DNA of 64,000 nt from positions 1,054,001-1,118,000 of the forward strand of contig MQVO02000009.1 of assembly GCA_001986395.2 (NCBI GenBank), written 5' to 3'. Within the stretch, counting starts at the first letter, position 1, and each line of letters opens with the position of its first letter. This document shows, one piece after another, positions 12,811 through 21,685 of this stretch. The notes under the pieces are model-generated. The model saw only the letters and a program-made list of their open reading frames with translations, searched no databases and was not told the DNA's origin. This stretch comes from Irpex lacteus. Its lineage: Eukaryota; Basidiomycota; Agaricomycetes; Polyporales; Irpicaceae. The translations under genes were made by a program, and so were the position numbers.

Positions 12811-13304
12811 CCTTAGTGTTGCTCATGGCGCAGCCCAGCTCAGCACGGTTCAGCTTTGATGGCTTTTGATGAGAAGTGATGGACCGAGCCACGCCGAGCC
12901 GCCAAGTTACGGCTCGGTTCAAGCGGCTACGGCTCAGCCGGTTATGAGCCATCAATACGGGCGCCTCGTACTCACGTTCTGTGGGCCGCTACTAACCTTA
13001 CCTCTCTGGCTACCTACACTTCACAATTCTGCTAGATTAACCTCAAAAAATATGTCTGTGAGTACTACAGACTCACTTTGATTGCATTCTGACTGATTTT
13101 ATTTAAATATATAAAGGATTGGTATATTCGTCCATTGCCAGGATGGATCACCGGCTTGAGCCGTCATAGCCGGTTTATGAGCCGTGAGCCGTGGCAAGCT
13201 GAACCGGCAAGAGCCGATGACTTATGGCTCGGCATAGCTCGGCTCCAAAACGGTTCAGCTACACGGCTCGTGGCTAAGGAGCTGAACCGTGAGCAACACT
13301 AAGG
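12811..13304. mobile_element. Non-autonomous hAT-like MITE, 494 bp
   Basis: Bounded by perfect 15-bp terminal inverted repeats: CCTTAGTGTTGCTCA at 12811-12825 and TGAGCAACACTAAGG at 13290-13304. The core TAGTGTTG...CAACACTA matches the usual hAT end pattern. Both subterminal regions are packed with short GGCTC/GAGCC and GGTTCAGC/GCTGAACC repeats in opposite orientations, typical of hAT transposase-binding arrays. There is no transposase frame. The flanks share AAGGCGGA, though not as a clean 8-bp target duplication. It ends about 160 bp upstream of the first DUF7918 gene. Confidence 0.75.
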
Positions 13305-13464: not shown

Positions 13465-14680
13465 ATGAAAATAGACCACATCGAATGTCAGGTCGTTTGC
13501 GACGGCGAAGTCCTAACGGAGTATCAAGAAAAGCTGGATGAAGAACGAGCGAAAAGTTGTCATATCGTTAGCGAAACTGGGAAGGTGCGAAGTATTATGT
13601 TCAGCATCGCAAATTGCATATCAACAGTTGTTATAGACCTTTTATGTACGATTACGCAGTCACCCGCACGAGTTCAACGTGTCGGGGCATCTATGGGTTG
13701 ACGGAAAATGTGCAGCCGCGATAGCTCTCCGGAGTTCACAAAGCTTTGACCTCGAGGGAGTTCGTATCGATGATACCAGAGTGAAACCATTCGTGTTTTC
13801 GTCTATCACACTGACAGGTAATTGTCAACTCATGAATACTTCCGTATCTTCATGCATTAATACCAAGTATTTAGATGATGATAGCGCTCTACCAGCAGCA
13901 GGCAGTCGCTCTAGCATGAAGGATCTTGGGACCATATGCATGAAGATGTATCGCATCAAGAACGTTCGATCTTCGAAGGACCCCATACCAATTTCCTGTG
14001 ATTTAGACGACAAGCCTGTGCATGAAAAGGCCAAGAAGACTGGAGGACATAGAGTAACGTGAGTATGACATCCAAATTACCTTCTTAGTAGGCTCACTCA
14101 ACTCTTATAGGCTAGGGGACACACTTAAGGGTAAAGAATCACTAGCAAGATTTGTGGACGTAGATTACATTGATCCACTGGACTCACCATACTACAAATT
14201 CACTTTGAGATTCCGAGACAAGGGTTGGTACGATATTTCTCATTACCATGACGCATACTGAGCGAAATTTGATAGCCATGCTGCAAGCGCAAGGAATCGT
14301 GCCACATGACTCTGCACCTTCACCTCCAAAGCGACCAGCATCGTCCACTCCCGCTGGTAGCTCGTCCAAGCGTCCTCGCATTGGACGGTCATCCTCGCAA
14401 GATAGCTCTAGCTCTCAAGTGAAGCTAGAAGATACGCCTGCCGCACGAGAATTGCAGGTGTGTTGAGCTCTCGAGACATCACTTTGACCATCCTAACTGT
14501 CGATCCCAGGCACGACGGGATGCTCTTCGAGCCCAGCGTGCCGCTATTGAGGCACAAGAAGCTGCTATCGAAGAAGAGCTCCGCCTGGCTGGAGGCGCGA
14601 ACGTTAAACGCGAAGCTTCCCCTATCGTCCTTGTAGGCGCATCTAGCGGGGATATCATTGACCTTACAGACGACGATTGA
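13465..14680 (+). CDS. DUF7918 family protein 1 of tandem array
   Basis: Agaricomycete-specific DUF7918 protein, 316 residues, probably nuclear. Six exons: 13465-13584, 13637-13817, 13875-14058, 14111-14223, 14276-14457, 14510-14680. The N-terminal about 200 residues are the beta-rich DUF7918 domain: IECQVVCDGEVLTEY, then HEFNVSGHLWVDGK, VKPFVFSSITLTG, DDDSALPAAG, LGTICMKMYR, PVHEKAKKTGGHRVT and SPYYKFTLRFR. It ends at MLQAQGIVP. A disordered part carries the basic cluster SSKRPR and QVKLED (psi-K-x-E). The last exon is a charged helix (RAQRAAIEAQEAAIEEELR), then VKREASP (again psi-K-x-E) and a terminal DIIDLTDDD, a SUMO-interacting-type motif. Molecular function is unknown; the SUMO link is inference from motifs. 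Confidence 0.88.
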
Positions 14681-15090
14681 GTGTAGTGCACGAGACATTA
14701 TCCTTCCTGCTCAATCATATATTACGTAGTATTTATTGAAGTCGCTATCCGCTGTTTCGTCTGTCTACTCTAACTACTTACTTACCATCTGGCTGGTGCT
14801 TACGATACTCTCAAGTAGTACTATTTGGTTCCATTCGCTAGTTACGCCCAGTATATAACACACTGCAATGAACCCATAAACAAACTAAGTAAAAGAAACG
14901 AGGATAAACCGAAGTCCGAGAGCCAGCGGCTAATTAAACACGCGACGCGGACGTCACATGGTCGTGAATGTCTTTCAGAGGTTTCAGGCTTCAAGGCCAC
15001 CACCACCTTTGTTCTTCGCTCTCCCTCTTTCTGCTTCTCTACCTCGGAGCCACTGAACACTAGCACCAAATTTCACTCAGTGATAATAAT
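14681..15090. other. Spacer between DUF7918 genes 1 and 2
   Basis: 410 bp with 3' UTR and promoter; carries TCACATGGTCGTGAATGT at 14954, a motif repeated before gene 3. No coding exon. Confidence 0.6.
14954..14960. promoter_or_regulatory. Shared TCACATG-GTCGTGAAT motif upstream of DUF7918 gene 2
   Basis: TCACATGGTCGTGAATGT lies 131 bp before the ATG at 15091. The nearly identical TCACGTGGTCGTGAATAT occurs 128 bp before gene 3. Confidence 0.4.
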
Positions 15091-16314
15091 ATGAAGATAG
15101 AACACATTGAATGCCAGGTCATTTGCGACGGCCAAGTCCTCACGGAATATCAAGAGAAGGATGACGGCCAAAGAGCGAAAACTTGTCATATCATTAGTGA
15201 AGCGGGCAAGGTGACGTTAAACATCAGCCTCTCTTTCATCTTTTACTCACTAGTTCTGGTTTCGTATTTGTACTATAGCGCTTCGTCGTACGAACGCAGA
15301 GTAACCCGCATGAGTTTGATGTTGCCTGCTACCTGTGGATTGACGGAAACTGTATACATAAAGCAACACTCCGACATTCCAGAGAGTTTGAGATAAGAGG
15401 AATCCCTGTCGACACCTCTAAAATAAAACCTTTTCTATTTTCATCCATTGTGCTCACTGGTAAGGCCACCGCCACTCATAATCTTCAATCCTTCAAGTTG
15501 ACTCTTCTCAGATGACGACGATGCTCTACAAGAAGGAAGCATCAATGCCAAAGACCTGGGCACTATATGTTACAAATTTTATCGCGTCAAAGCTGTTCGA
15601 GAGACAGGCTCCTACTATTCATCCTCATTTGATATCGATACTAGGCCTATTCATGAAAGGGCCAAAAAGGCCGGGGGTCATCGAGTGATGTATGTGTATT
15701 CTACTGCCTCTTACTACATAGTTAACACACGCTGATACTACTCAGTCTAGGCGAGGCCGAACCATCTATTCCTAAGCCAGGATTACACGTCACATTTATG
15801 GATCCCGTTGAATCGCCATACTACACGTTTACTTGGCGATATCGTTCCAAAGGTCTGAGTTCACGAAACCTTCTCTTACCAACTGATACTGACCGGAATG
15901 CAACAGATCTGTTACAAGCACAGGGGATTGTGCCTCTGGATCCTCCGCCTCCGTCTGCAAAGCGACCGGGATCGTCCACTCCCGCTGATAACTCTTCCAA
16001 GCGTCCGCGTACCGAGAGGTCACCTCCGCAACAGGGGTCCAGCTCTCGAGTGAAGCTTGAAGATACACCCACAGCACGAGAGCTACAGGTAGGTTGTTGG
16101 ATTCTCGTAATGCTGTTGCGTTGTCATTGACTATTGTATTCAGGCCCGCCGAGATGCTATTAGGGCTCAGCGTGCCGCTCTCGCAGAGCAAGAAGCTGCT
16201 ATCGAAGAAGAGCTACGTCAGGCTGGAGGCGAGAATGTCAAACGCGAAACTTCTCCTATCATCCTCGTAGGCGCGTCCAGCGGGGATGTTATTGACCTTA
16301 CGGAGGACGACTGA
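15091..16314 (+). CDS. DUF7918 family protein 2 of tandem array
   Basis: 312 residues, six exons: 15091-15210, 15279-15459, 15512-15689, 15746-15852, 15907-16088, 16144-16314. Exons 1, 2, 5 and 6 have exactly the lengths of gene 1, so this is a close tandem duplicate. Domain landmarks: IECQVICDGQVLTEY, HEFDVACYLWIDGN, KPFLFSSIVLTG, DDDDALQEGS, LGTICYKFYR, PIHERAKKAGGHRVI, SPYYTFTWRYRSKG, LLQAQGIVPLD. Then SSKRPR, RVKLEDTP, the helix AQRAALAEQEAAIEEELRQ, VKRETSP and a terminal SGDVIDLTEDD. Both psi-K-x-E sites and the SUMO-interacting-type tail are kept. Expected to behave like gene 1; no frame damage seen. Confidence 0.88.
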
Positions 16315-16680
16315 GTCCAGTGCGCGAGATATTATCCTTCTTTGTACTCTAGCTACTTTACTTTCATGTATTCGGCGCCAGTGCTCACGATAAGTACCCT
16401 AGGCCTCTTGAAGTAATAGTAAGGTTCGGTTCGGTCGTTACGCCCGTGATACAACACGGCGTAATGGATTCATGAGTGATCAAGGTACTTACTTAACGTG
16501 TTTACATGCTTTTGTTACTGTAATCAAAGCCTTCGTGAAACGCACATCACGTGGTCGTGAATATTGAGCGCGCAAAACACTACCGTCGCCGTCCGCATTT
16601 GTTGCTCGCTCTCCGAGCTCTCGTCTCACTGACCTCAGAATTCCAGAAAGTGAAAGGAACACGAAGCCGACTTAAAACTT
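16315..16680. other. Spacer between DUF7918 genes 2 and 3
   Basis: 366 bp, no coding exon; contains the shared TCACGTGGTCGTGAAT motif. Confidence 0.6.
16547..16553. promoter_or_regulatory. Shared TCACGTG-GTCGTGAAT motif upstream of DUF7918 gene 3
   Basis: TCACGTGGTCGTGAATAT, 128 bp upstream of the ATG at 16681, matching the site before gene 2 in both sequence and spacing. Confidence 0.4.
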
Positions 16681-18014
16681 ATGAAGATCGACCATATAGA
16701 ATGTCAAGTCGTGTGCGATGACAAAGTCCTTACAGAGTACCACGAGAAGGGGGACGAGCAAAGATACAAAGGTTGCTGGATGATCAGCGAAACGGGCAAG
16801 GTGCTGTTCAACATTGAACCTTTCTTGACTCTTGATTAAATGAGTTGGTACTTGCGTCATAGAACTTCATTGTGCGGATGCAGAGCAATCCACATGAGTT
16901 CGATGTCTGCTGTAACCTCTGGATCGACGGAAACCATCTACGTAAAGTGGTCGTTCAAGGTTCCACGGTAGGTGAAATGAACGGAGCACGTGTCAACTCG
17001 TCAACAATAAGACCTTTTCAATTCGCATCTATCGTACTCACTGGTAAGGTCACATTGATCAGACGGCTTTCAATGCTCACTTCTGCTCAGACGACGACCG
17101 CGCCTTACAAGAAAGTGGCTCTAATTTAAGGGACCTAGGCACTATATGCTTGAAGTTTTATCGCATTGAAGACGTTCAGGACATAGATCTCTACCGTCTA
17201 CCTACATGTGATATAGAAAGGGCCAAGAAAGCCGGGGGCCATCGAGTCATGTATGTATGTTCTCTCCTACACTAATATCATTAGCATATAAGAATATTTT
17301 GTAGTTTGGGTGATGCTATAGCAGCTACGCCTTTTCGAGCGAAGGCCTTTACATTCATCGACCCCGAAACATCCCCGTACTACACTTTTACTTGGCGATA
17401 CCGTTCCAAAAGTCTGCAACACTTCTTTTCGCATACTTAGAGAAACATACTGACTGAACCCGCTAGATATGCTACAAGCCCAAGGGATTGTACCACTGGA
17501 TCCCGTACCTTCGCCTCAAAAGCGGCCAGGGCCATTCGCTTCATCTGATCCAAGTTCAAAGCGCCCGCGAACGGAGCAGTCGACCTCGCATAGGAAATGC
17601 GACGCTTCAGTGAAGCTAGAACCACACTTGGCATATGTTCCTACCGCTCGAGAGCTGCAGGTGCAGTGCTATTTCGTTATTGGTCTAGCCCTTCAAGTTC
17701 CTCACGGATGCTGTTTCCAGGCTCGCAAAGAAGCTATTAAAGCCCAGCGTGCTGCTCTTCAAGCACAAGAAGCTCCTTTTAAAGCCCAGCGTGCCGCTTT
17801 GCGAGCACTAGAAGCTACTCTTCAAGCGCAGAGAACTACTCTTGAAGTACAAGAAACCACTTTTCAAGCGCAAAAGGCCGCTCTGGAAGTGCAAGAGGCT
17901 GCACTCGAGGAGGATTTCCGTCGAGCAGCTGCTAGGGGTTTCAAACGAGAGGCTTCCCCTATCACCTTGCTGCCTGGAAACAGGGACGTTGTTGATCTAA
18001 CAGATGATGAGTGA
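16681..18014 (+). CDS. DUF7918 family protein 3, with expanded C-terminal helix
   Basis: 351 residues, six exons: 16681-16800, 16863-17043, 17091-17250, 17305-17411, 17467-17660, 17721-18014. Landmarks: IECQVVCDDKVLTEY, HEFDVCCNLWIDGN, RPFQFASIVLTG, DDDRALQESG, LGTICLKFYR, AKKAGGHRVI, SPYYTFTWRYRSK, MLQAQGIVPLD. It has SSKRPR and SVKLEP, and near the end FKREASP and RDVVDLTDDE. The last exon is 294 nt against 159-171 nt in the sister genes. The extra length comes from repeated seven-residue-like units of the form (A/E)xQxxxL/F (AQRAALQAQEAPFKAQRAAL...EVQEAAL), giving a much longer predicted coiled coil. The loop between LGTICLKFYR and AKKAGG is shorter than in the sisters. Otherwise intact. 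Confidence 0.87.
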
Positions 18015-18815
18015 GGACAGCACAGGTCACGTCCTTACTCTAAGTTGAATGCTGCGGATCTACTTATCAGCGGACTTGCTCTTCCTTGCTTCTCCTCGTT
18101 GGTCTTATTTATCGTGTGATCTTTCTTATACTAATTTACTGCTCTTTAACACTGCAATTGCTTACCTTATACACGCCATGTCTTGTGTCATTGTCGCGTC
18201 GATACTCAGGCTACCTTAGACAATCGCGGCGAAGTAGGAAGTTTCTGAGGTGTAAGTGCTGCTATGAAGAGCTTCGAGAACGAACATATGGGTTTTTTTC
18301 GTCTACATCTAAACACACTATGGAGTGTTCCAGCCTTCATCGTCATATAGCTACGACAAGAGTCACAGTAAAACGGAATGTAACAAGATGATGATGGCTA
18401 CAAACACGTCAAAATATTGAGCGAGCTGAGCGCTCGCTCGAACCGACTCCTCCCATGATTGAACACGTAGGTATATGTAATTCTACATGCTCAACACCCC
18501 TGCACTTCCATCTGCACACCGCCACAGCGAGTCACTTGCGAATCAACAGGCACTATACCGAGGTACGAACTTGAAGCATACAGATGCTGACTCCCGAACT
18601 AGCTGCTGGCGCGTAGACCGTGTGACCGCGTTAGATTCAGGTCGGTAACCTCCTTTCCTTTTGAAAGCCATCCACTCAAAATTTTCCACGTTAAGCTCTA
18701 TCAGCTCGGATACCGCCCGTGCGTCAAATGGGGCAACCTGTATTCGCTCTACAACCTATCACTTCACTCGGCACTCCAACTGTTCGCTTTCTGAAGACGA
18801 GTTGGTCCCAAGACC
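18015..18815. other. Spacer between DUF7918 genes 3 and 4
   Basis: 801 bp, about twice the other spacers. A plus-strand open frame at 18086-18391 has no family resemblance and lacks the array's exon signature, so I read this as non-coding. GTGTGACCGCG at about 18620 weakly resembles the promoter motif of the other copies. Confidence 0.5.
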
Positions 18816-20076
18816 ATGAAATTCGATGATAATGTCGAGTGTCAAGTCATCTGCGACGGGGAACACCTTACAGAGTATCAAGAAAGGTCCGAAGACAATG
18901 CGAAGGGTAAAAGCTGCTATATTATCAGCGAAGCGGGCAAGGTGCGCACTGCGAACTCGTATAGTCCGTAGCGATCAGATCACATAGGTCGTATTTTCCC
19001 TGCAGCGTTTCTTTGTACGAGTCAAGAGCCTGCCTCTGAGTAGTGCTCAACAAACGGACCTATCCGCCGAGCTCTGGATAGACGGACAGCATATGCGAAA
19101 CAGGCCCATATGTGAGGATGGATGTGACATGGATGGCGTTCGTACCGCTAGGTCCACAGTAAGGCCTTTCATCTTCACATCTATCACACTTACAGGTAAA
19201 GTCCGAGTCGTCCATAAGTGACTGTGCGGTTGTGTCATTGACTGCTGTCTAGATGATGACAGTGCTTTACAAGAAGGTACTGCAATTGTGAACGAGCTCG
19301 GAACCATTTGTATCAAGGTCTATCGTGTCAGGGAGTATAGGGACGCTGGCTCCTCGTACACCGCCCGCTCATTAAAGATGCAAAATACGCCTGTGCACGA
19401 GAGATCAAAGAAGGCCGGAGGCCATAGAGTCACGTTCGTGCAATCTCTCAGTCAAAGGTCCAACATATGCTTACCTGTATTGCGTAGTCTAGGCGAAGCT
19501 CGAGCGAATGAGAGGAAATCAGCCATGGAAATTATATATTTTGATAGGAAAGACTCGCCATATTATACGTTTACTTGGCGATATCGATCTAAAGGTCCAA
19601 AATTCCACTATTTCTCTTAAATCATGCAACGTACTGACTACTTAACCTGCGGCAGGTATACTACAAGCACAGGGAATTGTCCCATTAGATTCCAACACCT
19701 CGTCTTCGAAACGCCCTAGATCGTCTTCTCCGTCACGGTTCGGTGGCTCTCAAGCTTTCAAACGTACTCGTGCGGAGCATTTACCCCTACCACATGGCTC
19801 CGGCTCCCAGATGAAGCTGGAAGATGTGCCTACCGCACCAAAGTTGCAGGTACGCTGTGTTTTACTATGGCTTGTATCTACATTATCTAAAAATATCGTA
19901 ACCAGGCTCGTGTTGAAGCTGTCAGAGCTCAGCGTGCCGCTCTTGAAGCCCAAGAGGTTGCTTTGAACGAGGAGCTTCGTCAAGCAAACAATGGAGGGGT
20001 CAAACGCGAGAGATCTCCCATCGTCTTCCATGGGCTTCGCAGTGGGGACGTCATTGACCTTACAGAGGATGACTGA
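18816..20076 (+). CDS. DUF7918 family protein 4 of tandem array
   Basis: About 322 residues, six exons: 18816-18941, about 19005-19195, 19253-19433, 19488-19594, 19656-19849, 19906-20076. The start of exon 2 is uncertain by one base in my reading. Landmarks: VECQVICDGEHLTEY, LSAELWIDGQ, RPFIFTSITLTG, DDDSALQEGT, LGTICIKVYR, PVHERSKKAGGHRVT, LGEARANER, SPYYTFTWRYRSKG, ILQAQGIVPLD. Downstream are SSKRPRSSSPS, a second basic KRTR, QMKLEDVP, the helix AQRAALEAQEVALNEELRQ, VKRERSP and a terminal SGDVIDLTEDD. It and gene 5 form a subgroup: both have the E-(K/R)-S-E insertion in exon 1, SSA before the LWIDG strand, and LGEA-x-x-x-ERKS. No clear lesion apart from the exon 2 uncertainty. Confidence 0.82.
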
Positions 20077-20472
20077 ATACAGAACGTGACCTCTTATGCA
20101 TGGCCCCTCTTTTTTCGTTGCATAACATTACCCAGTCTCAAGGTTACACCTTCAACTCAGTAGCTCGCCGGCGGCGCCCTCGAGTCCGTTATTGCTTTCG
20201 TCCTGGTGCTTCCTGTTACAGTAGTAATATTTGATCTTGAGCATTTATCTATGCCGAAATGGGTCTGCTACTGGCGATGTTAGTGTTACAAGTACTCAAT
20301 ACTCAGGCCCCAGGGGCAGCTCATAAGTTCTAGTTATAACACGTTGGAGCCTTTGAGAATGGGTCGGTCATGTGACCGTGTCATTAAATGCTTCAATTTC
20401 CCTGGGCTCTTTGTCCTGGACGCTCATCTTCTAACTTCGACCACGTCTAGCATCCCGCTTTCTTGAAGCAAG
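20077..20472. other. Spacer between DUF7918 genes 4 and 5
   Basis: 396 bp, non-coding. Contains GTCATGTGACCGTGTCATTAA (20367-20387), similar to the sequence upstream of gene 1. Confidence 0.6.
20368..20375. promoter_or_regulatory. TCATGTGA element upstream of DUF7918 gene 5
   Basis: TCATGTGACCGTGTCATTAA, 98 bp upstream of the ATG at 20473. The 3' part (CGTGTCATTAA) matches the promoter of gene 1. Confidence 0.35.
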
Positions 20473-21685
20473 ATGAAGATAGAAAACGTCGAATGCCATG
20501 TCATCTGTGATGACCAAAACCTCACGGAATATCAAGAGAAGTCCGAAGCCAGTGCACGGGGGAAAAGCTGCTATATCATCAGCGAAACGGGCAAGGTGTG
20601 AACTCATCCAGCCCCTACTAAGTACCCAGAGCATTCACGGCTTATATACGTTGTATCCCCATGAAGCGCTTTATCATACAGGTGAAGAAACTGTCTCAGA
20701 GTAGTGCTCATGGGATGGACCTCTCCGTCGAACTTTGGATAGACGGACGATTTATTCGAAGCAAATCACTGCACAAGGATATATGTGACATCGATAGCGC
20801 TCGTATCGATAGGTTTACAATAAGGCCATTCCTCTTCACATCCATCGCGCTGACAGGTGAAGTCGTCCGATGAATTCTCTGTGCCCTTGTTATTAAGTGC
20901 TGGCTAGACGACGATCGTGCTTTACAAGAGGGCAGTTCAAATTTGGACGACCTTGGAACTATTTGTATCCAGGTTTATCGTGTCAGCGACTACCGTAAAG
21001 TTGCTGCTGCTCCCACGAACAAGGCTCTCTCATCTGAAATGCAAAACAAGCCTGTGCACGAAAAGTCAAAGAAGGCTGGAGGCCATAGAGCTACGTTCGT
21101 GTGACCTGTCGTCCAAATGTCAAGCATGTCAAAATTAATTGATAAGTATTCCTCTCTAGTCTAGGTGAAGCTCAAGTGCGTGAGAGGAAATCGACCAGGG
21201 AAATAATCTATTTCGACGAAAGGGGCTCCCCATATTATACATTTACTTGGCGATATCGCTCCAAAGGTTCACAATCTCTGACCTACTGGGAGAGGGACAT
21301 AAGTACTGACGTGAGCGTGATAGACATCTTACAAGCACAGGGGATCGTACCATTAGATTCTGCGCCTTTGCCCCCAAAGCGTTATAGATTGTCCACCCCC
21401 TCGGGTACCGCTTCCAAACGTCCGCGAGTGAAGCTCGAAGATGTGTCTAGCGCACAAGAACGACAGGTACATGGTTTGGTTTCACCGCAGCCTTGTATCA
21501 CCATCATTGATGCCTATCGTATCCAGGCCCGAGTAGAAGCTCTCAGAGCTCAGCTTGAGGAAGAAGAAGCTGCTCTGAAAGAGGAGCTTCGTCGAGCAAA
21601 CGCTGCTGGTGTCAAACGAGAGGTCTCTCCAATTGTCCTTAAGGGCGTCAGCGGCGACGTCATTGACTTGACAGAGGATGACTGA
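20473..21685 (+). CDS. DUF7918 family protein 5 of tandem array
   Basis: 302 residues, six exons: 20473-20595, 20667-20856, 20908-21094, 21160-21266, 21324-21466, 21527-21685. Landmarks: VECHVICDDQNLTEY, SVELWIDGR, RPFLFTSIALTG, DDDRALQEGS, LGTICIQVYR, PVHEKSKKAGGHRAT, LGEAQVRER, SPYYTFTWRYRSKG, ILQAQGIVPLD. The disordered linker is short. SKRPR runs straight into VKLEDVS, so the nuclear-signal-like cluster and the first psi-K-x-E site are fused. The helix is a shorter LEEEEAALKEELRRA, followed by VKREVSP and SGDVIDLTEDD. The acceptor of intron 1 is AAG, not the usual CAG/TAG. The shortest array member, but all motifs are kept. Confidence 0.87.

Follow-up and report, generated by a model that had tools for sequence, protein, structure and literature searches.

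A tandem array of five genes, g1 to g5, occupies positions 13465-21685 of the plus strand in the 64,000-nucleotide stretch of DNA analysed here (the window, which is C54:1054001-1118000 of a 44.3 Mb genome in 317 contigs that is very close to Irpex lacteus). Each gene encodes a DUF7918 protein whose C-terminal tail carries the SUMO acceptor consensus psi-K-x-E, followed by a terminal candidate SUMO-interacting motif (SIM). We propose that g1-g5 are, on balance, probably nuclear SUMO-switch proteins, in which a beta-sandwich domain is joined to a tail that would be both SUMO-modified and SUMO-binding. The proposal builds on the gene structure of the array, the conservation, order and spacing of the motif pair, a predicted fold that ends in a low-confidence tail, and a SUMO gene in the same genome. 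At the level of sequence, the acceptor and SIM pair, its order and its spacing are supported far beyond the array locus.

Five head-to-tail genes share a SUMO-type tail

The gene models for g1-g5 lie head to tail and have six exons each, with GT-AG introns of 47-86 nt (Table 1). In a Pfam search, all five proteins match PF25534 (DUF7918) over residues ~5-210, with E values of 2.4e-20 to 1.8e-33 and scores of 74-117 bits against a curated cut-off of 27, which places each of them in the family; no other Pfam family exceeds its own cut-off in these proteins. Because the match spans residues ~5-210, the tail falls outside the Pfam domain, and the family model stops ahead of the helix and tail and excludes the paired SUMO-type motifs. 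KRPR, (V/M)KLE, (V/F)KRE and a terminal (V/I)(V/I)DLT(D/E)D(D/E) are present in all five proteins, and the last two exons encode the SUMO-type tail. The original prediction of five head-to-tail, six-exon genes with shared tail motifs is thus borne out by the gene models and the motif reading. All five also fit the SIM pattern of a four-residue hydrophobic core with acidic neighbours (PMC12751080).

Two further features of these proteins concern the same motifs. In g3, the charged helix is extended by in-frame repeats (17721-18014), two of them spaced 42 bases (14 residues) apart, and both SUMO-type motifs are intact. Within the folded DUF7918 domain, at residues ~96-108, all five proteins also contain the SIM-like string I(T/V/A)LTDDD, which probably has a structural role there.

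A predicted structure is available for P0001, an I. lacteus protein near-identical to g1. In this model, 15 of the first 20 ten-residue blocks have a predicted local distance difference test (pLDDT) score of at least 90, and the last three blocks, which follow the helix, score 50-55 and form neither helix nor strand. The SIM is therefore predicted, on the P0001 model, to lie in a disordered, reachable stretch.

The motif pair is conserved across the DUF7918 family

Two protein searches with alignment queries yielded 79 relatives. Those named come from Irpex, Cytidiella, Lentinus, Trametes, Ganoderma and other polypores, from Lactarius, Russula, Artomyces, Thelephora, Suillus, Marasmius, Asterophora, Tulasnella and Rhodosporidiobolus, with two from Colletotrichum. 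In a strict count, 68 of the 79 had tails of at least 25 residues (the domain end was not recognised in 10, and one was cut); the SIM core is present in 60 of these tails, psi-K-x-E in 62, the ordered pair in 57, and a SIM at most six residues from the end in 52. Together the 68 tails hold 73 strict SIM cores and 110 psi-K-x-E sites, compared with 0.5 and 8.1 after shuffling; the shuffled means, summed over the 68, are 0.026 for the ordered pair and 0.03 for the terminal SIM. A looser count, with a relaxed SIM and no rule on the domain end, covered 75 non-fragments (P0011, P0044, P0050 and P0077 were dropped) and found a SIM-like core in the tail of 68. The outcome named beforehand as counting against the idea was that most homologues would lack the motifs or have them at random places. 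This was looked for and not seen: 65 of the 75 carry psi-K-x-(D/E) ahead of the last core. Among these 65 pair-bearing relatives, the core lies within six residues of the end in 58, and an acidic residue occurs at most five residues after or four before the core in every one. The distance from lysine to SIM is 13-22 residues in 62 (13-18 in 55 and 22 in seven) and 7, 36 and 102 in the other three. The Colletotrichum tails read KVKREPGTGVKREADE ... GTIDLSDD.

The pair stands out equally when constraint is followed along the protein. Alignment A4 contains 65 of the 79 relatives, omitting P0005, P0011, P0015, P0022, P0041, P0043, P0044, P0050, P0060, P0066, P0071, P0072, P0075 and P0077, of which P0005, P0022 and P0075 are SIM-less. 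Relative entropy per column is 1.68 bits in the domain (207 residues), 0.97 in the linker and 1.14 in the helix, and within the tail it is 2.26 in the VKREASPI block, 1.08 in the stretch between and 2.55 in DIIDLTDDD. The psi-K-x-E consensus of SUMO substrates is conserved, with the acceptor lysine in 64 of 65 rows, the glutamate in 61 and a preceding valine in 46; the D and L of DLT are kept in 61 of 62. The lysine is the ninth-ranked column, and the eight above it are all in the domain. In alignment A5 (41 rows, with Colletotrichum in the lead), the lysine is invariant and conservation of the E, D and L is at least 90%. Judged from these alignments, constraint on the tail pair equals that on the domain core, unlike the linker. 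The check proposed at the outset, C-terminal against linker conservation, thus favours the tail motifs (2.3-2.6 bits per column against 0.97). The accompanying view of the C-terminal module as the functional core holds in part: the tail peptides are highly conserved, but the domain is likewise conserved (it includes the top eight columns), so these proteins have two conserved parts.

Some relatives have duplicated the pair. The tail of P0026 contains a tandem KRE-SP plus IIDLT unit twice, VKREGSPIRLPHGDDDIIDLT then VKREASPIMVPDGADDDIIDLT, and in P0040 acceptor plus IDLT occurs two times, with no KRE-SP in the first unit; such tandem units are as expected of a module. P0033 has two IDLT cores, and more than one SIM-like core is found in 14 of the 75 relatives, several with VIELSDD in the linker. 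The polypore proteins P0012, P0013, P0015, P0029, P0035, P0036, P0038 and P0068 have an extra linker SIM-like core (VIELS, VIDVS, IIELT or VIDLS, then acids) and so two candidate SIMs. P0015 (Lentinus tigrinus, 614 aa) also has PF08588 beside DUF7918, possibly in a fused gene model.

The serine-proline after the acceptor varies in position. The phosphorylation-dependent SUMO motif (PDSM) is defined as psi-K-x-(D/E)-x-x-S-P (PMC10821541). K-x-E-x-S-P, the form in the window, is found in 26 of the 75 relatives (0.11 after shuffling) and the exact K-x-E-x-x-S-P in 12 (0.12 after shuffling); in most proteins from Russula and Lactarius the SP lies one residue further on, as in VKRELRSPSP, giving an exact PDSM.

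The same genome encodes SUMO, and a terminal SIM-type motif marks DUF7918 genes

In the genome that contains the array, a yeast Smt3 query matched two stretches of C18 (E 2.6e-4 and 2.4e-3). The SUMO gene lies at C18:106300-107800, and its translation contains EVYFKIKRNTKLSKLQ, EVYFKIKRNTKLSKLQGAYANK and RFLYDGNRIQDDDTPSSLEMED. Both EVYFKIKRNTKLSKLQGAYANK and RFLYDGNRIQDDDTPSSLEMED are of the type expected to make up the SIM groove. A second, partial copy of the middle part of this gene lies ~12 kb away, at C18:118000-119400.

Both tail motifs, (V/I/F)KRExSPI and (V/I)(V/I)DLT, are kept in all nine DUF7918 copies in the genome that reach the tail. A whole-genome scan for (V/I/M)(V/I/L)D(L/F)Tx(D/E)(D/E)stop gave seven matches, six in the window and one in the C308 copy (Table 1), and the reversed pattern gave one. 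A pattern one residue shorter gave four, three ending in TGG and one being the C54:1043383 copy, and its reverse again gave one. Over the 44 Mb genome, the matches of both patterns that end in a real stop are all DUF7918 genes. Within what these two patterns detect, the terminal SIM-type ending is a hallmark of DUF7918 in this genome.

A proposed model for SIM-aided SUMO modification

How might such a tail work? The N-terminal DUF7918 beta-sandwich (~207 residues) would bind a ligand. Next would come a flexible linker, in which a basic cluster probably serves nuclear import and a first psi-K-L-E is found, and after it a long charged helix and the composite SUMO tail. In this tail the psi-K-R-E lysine would be the SUMO acceptor, phosphorylation of the next S-P would probably promote its modification, and the terminal (V/I)(V/I)DLT with its acidic residues would act as the SIM. 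Placed 13-22 residues away, the SIM could keep SUMO-charged Ubc9 near and thereby raise modification of the lysine in cis. After attachment of SUMO, the SIM may either bind back to it (a closed state) or bind the SUMO of other nuclear proteins (a bridging state).

The enzyme domain of thymine DNA glycosylase (TDG) is unrelated to DUF7918. The C-terminal region of TDG offers a similar arrangement, with a consensus acceptor lysine (K330) and a SIM (308-311) ~20 residues apart, and the SUMO attached to this lysine engages the SIM in cis (PMC11602971). This geometry fits the spacing of mostly 13-22 residues in DUF7918 proteins, with the order reversed: the TDG SIM (VQEV) precedes the acceptor, whereas in DUF7918 proteins the SIM follows it, at the very end. 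SIMs within the substrate raise its own SUMO modification in cis in TDG and also in DAXX, USP25, BLM and Srs2 (PMC12751080). Unlike in the last four, the DUF7918 pair is narrowly spaced and kept in most relatives found, in proteins whose only Pfam family, in g1-g5, is DUF7918. VIDLT itself is the SIM of PIAS1 (PMC4907222, PMC3901395), and PIAS1 and the SUMO-targeted ligase RNF4 have the same type of core with acidic residues (PMC3901395); in contrast to both, g1-g5 have no RING or SP-RING domain among Pfam matches up to E 1 and do not classify as SUMO-targeted ubiquitin ligases or PIAS/Siz ligases. It is from the PIAS1-type core, the cis-SIM precedents and the TDG-like distance that we arrive at the proposal of SIM-aided SUMO modification, then closing or bridging. 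Modules of this kind are already known, and the new element is a family of acceptor-plus-SIM proteins, which was not found in the literature searched; neither 'DUF7918' nor 'PF25534' was found there.

Several points weigh against this proposal. That the proteins are nuclear, phosphorylated, SUMO-modified and SUMO-binding, and that the mechanism acts in cis, is what we infer. The shuffles of the tails take no account of shared ancestry. Both query profiles contained the tail, and the set of relatives may lean toward tail-bearing proteins; domain-only profiles at E 0.001 re-score, within the 79 already found, 75 (a five-paralogue profile) and all 79 (a nine-row profile built from some of the 79). 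By the loose rule, P0005, P0016, P0022, P0065, P0067, P0074 and P0075 lack a SIM core (P0065 ends near NEIVDMTHL, and P0016 has VKRE repeats with no SIM), and P0019, P0037 and P0049 have the core with no acceptor ahead of it, although some of these ten pair-less relatives may be faulty gene models. The expected basic cluster is present as KRPR in all five window proteins, but family-wide K(R/K)x0-3(K/R) is weakly enriched, occurring in 56 of 75 tails against 31 after shuffling. In all five window genes, K-x-E-x-S-P is one residue short of the published PDSM and so falls outside that class. Finally, the terminal-SIM patterns are narrow: the C54:1047180 copy (VIDLTGGDD) is missed by both, and other kinds of terminal SIM would escape them.

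These proteins could instead be readers of SUMO only, which we regard as unlikely. The terminal SIM would then target these proteins to nuclear sites rich in SUMO, and KRE-SP, rather than being an acceptor, would belong to an extended SIM or form a charged patch under phospho-regulation. Indeed, the clearest match is that of the SIM core, VIDLT being the PIAS1 core (PMC3901395, PMC4907222), longer conserved stretches flanking SIMs have been described (PMC12751080), and P0019 retains the SIM with VKRQ in place of VKRE. Yet the lysine is the most conserved residue of the tail and, at the frequencies given above, it forms with the glutamate and the preceding valine the acceptor consensus rather than a general charge pattern. 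It is quite unlikely, in our estimate, that the tail serves a different partner, such as a chromatin or transport factor, as a conserved short linear motif whose likeness to SUMO motifs is coincidental. Short motifs are easily mimicked, and the case for SUMO binding by the tail comes from its sequence; against coincidence, two types of SUMO consensus co-occur in fixed order, with narrow spacing and acidic flanks, and some relatives have duplicated the two together.

Further copies and the history of the array

A genome search with g2 revealed DUF7918 copies beyond the array (Table 1); the numbers from this search are lower bounds, and exon-by-exon models cover g1-g5. The earlier count of five is right for the plus-strand array but not for the window as a whole, as it overlooked g6 on the minus strand. 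The nearest ATG of g6 (35182-35180) is followed after five codons by an in-frame TAG (35167-35165), and because of this early stop either its start is unsure or the gene has decayed. The C187 locus (1039700-1042200) contains the first part of the C308 copy together with very similar upstream DNA, after which the sequences diverge; it looks like a truncated segmental duplication. Upstream of g1, a ~490-base element (window 12811-13304) with 24-base inverted ends (88%) terminates 160 bases before the gene; with 15 near-full copies in the genome, including this one, at 90-100% identity, it looks like a small non-autonomous transposon.

Table 1. DUF7918 genes, their SUMO-type tails and further copies; positions without a contig name are those of the window.
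Feature	Description	Position	Strand	Exons or source
g1	DUF7918 protein, 316 aa	13465-14680	+	13465-13584, 13637-13817, 13875-14058, 14111-14223, 14276-14457, 14510-14680
g2	DUF7918 protein, 312 aa	15091-16314	+	15091-15210, 15279-15459, 15512-15689, 15746-15852, 15907-16088, 16144-16314
g3	DUF7918 protein, 351 aa, expanded charged helix	16681-18014	+	16681-16800, 16863-17043, 17091-17250, 17305-17411, 17467-17660, 17721-18014
g4	DUF7918 protein, 322 aa	18816-20076	+	18816-18941, 19006-19195, 19253-19433, 19488-19594, 19656-19849, 19906-20076
g5	DUF7918 protein, 297 aa	20473-21685	+	20473-20595, 20682-20856, 20908-21094, 21160-21266, 21324-21466, 21527-21685
g1 tail	VKREASPI ... IIDLTDDD + stop, last exon	14603-14680	+	gene model, genome pattern scan
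g2 tail	VKRETSPI ... VIDLTEDD + stop	16237-16314	+	gene model, genome pattern scan
g3 tail	FKREASPI ... VVDLTDDE + stop	17940-18014	+	gene model, genome pattern scan
g4 tail	VKRERSPI ... VIDLTEDD + stop	19999-20076	+	gene model, genome pattern scan
g5 tail	VKREVSPI ... VIDLTEDD + stop	21611-21685	+	gene model, genome pattern scan
g6	sixth DUF7918 gene, tail VKRERSPI ... VIDLTLDD + stop	33854 to ~35182	-	genome search with g2, locus reading
Copy left of window	DUF7918 copy, tail stop to first ATG	C54:1047180-1048931	-	genome search with g2
Copy left of window	DUF7918 copy, tail stop to first ATG	C54:1043383-1044608	-	genome search with g2
C308 copy	DUF7918 copy, complete-looking	C308:1805247-1806467		genome search with g2
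C187 copy	DUF7918 copy, first part only retained	C187:1040417-1040788		genome search with g2

The truncated C187 copy, the possible early stop in g6 and the inverted-repeat element beside g1 speak for the view that the array is non-functional repeat debris or an assembly artefact. We consider this very improbable, as the five six-exon frames are open with intact splice sites and g1-g3 have I. lacteus orthologues at 83-98% identity; moreover g1, g2, g3 and g5 are 50-65% identical to g4, and thus too divergent for a recent artefact. In detail, g1 is 94.6% identical to P0001, g3 97.7% to P0002, and g2 82.6% to P0005 across 288 aligned columns, whereas the best identities of g4 and g5 among P0001-P0011 are 59.6% and 61.1%. 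In a tree of 16 proteins, g1, g2 and g3 each pair with one I. lacteus protein, and g4 and g5 form one group with two others in which pairs are not resolved. For P0001-P0005 the contig reported is 1519986 bases long, and for P0006-P0008 and P0010 it is 1510722 bases long, so DUF7918 clusters probably occur in both species. The array had been described as locally expanding. Among the relatives found, g1-g3 have clear I. lacteus orthologues and g4 and g5 do not, and a history of copy gain and loss under a constant tail fits better.

A possible wider role for DUF7918

Large DNA viruses have uncharacterised proteins that the folds of the P0001 (m0cc37c62f1c3) and P0078 (m43aad395eedc) models resemble (best E 8.6e-12 and 9.9e-6), and the two models share the same first three viral matches. 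No solved structure matched at E 0.001 in a search with the P0001 model. A far-reaching and distinctly improbable extension is that DUF7918 is a nuclear SUMO-switch family across mushroom-forming fungi, and also in Rhodosporidiobolus and Colletotrichum, in which a virus-like sensor domain and fast-turnover arrays would wire diverse sensors to one SUMO output, possibly to defend the genome or to recognise foreign nuclear material.

More immediately, a family spread over many mushroom-forming fungi gains a testable biochemical link, through a terminal module that is far more constrained than the linker. If the SUMO-switch proposal is true, DUF7918 would extend the proteins that are both SUMO reader and substrate beyond the known ligases and repair factors. 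It would also provide compact natural modules in which to study SUMO modification in cis, and a route to the DUF7918 ligand.

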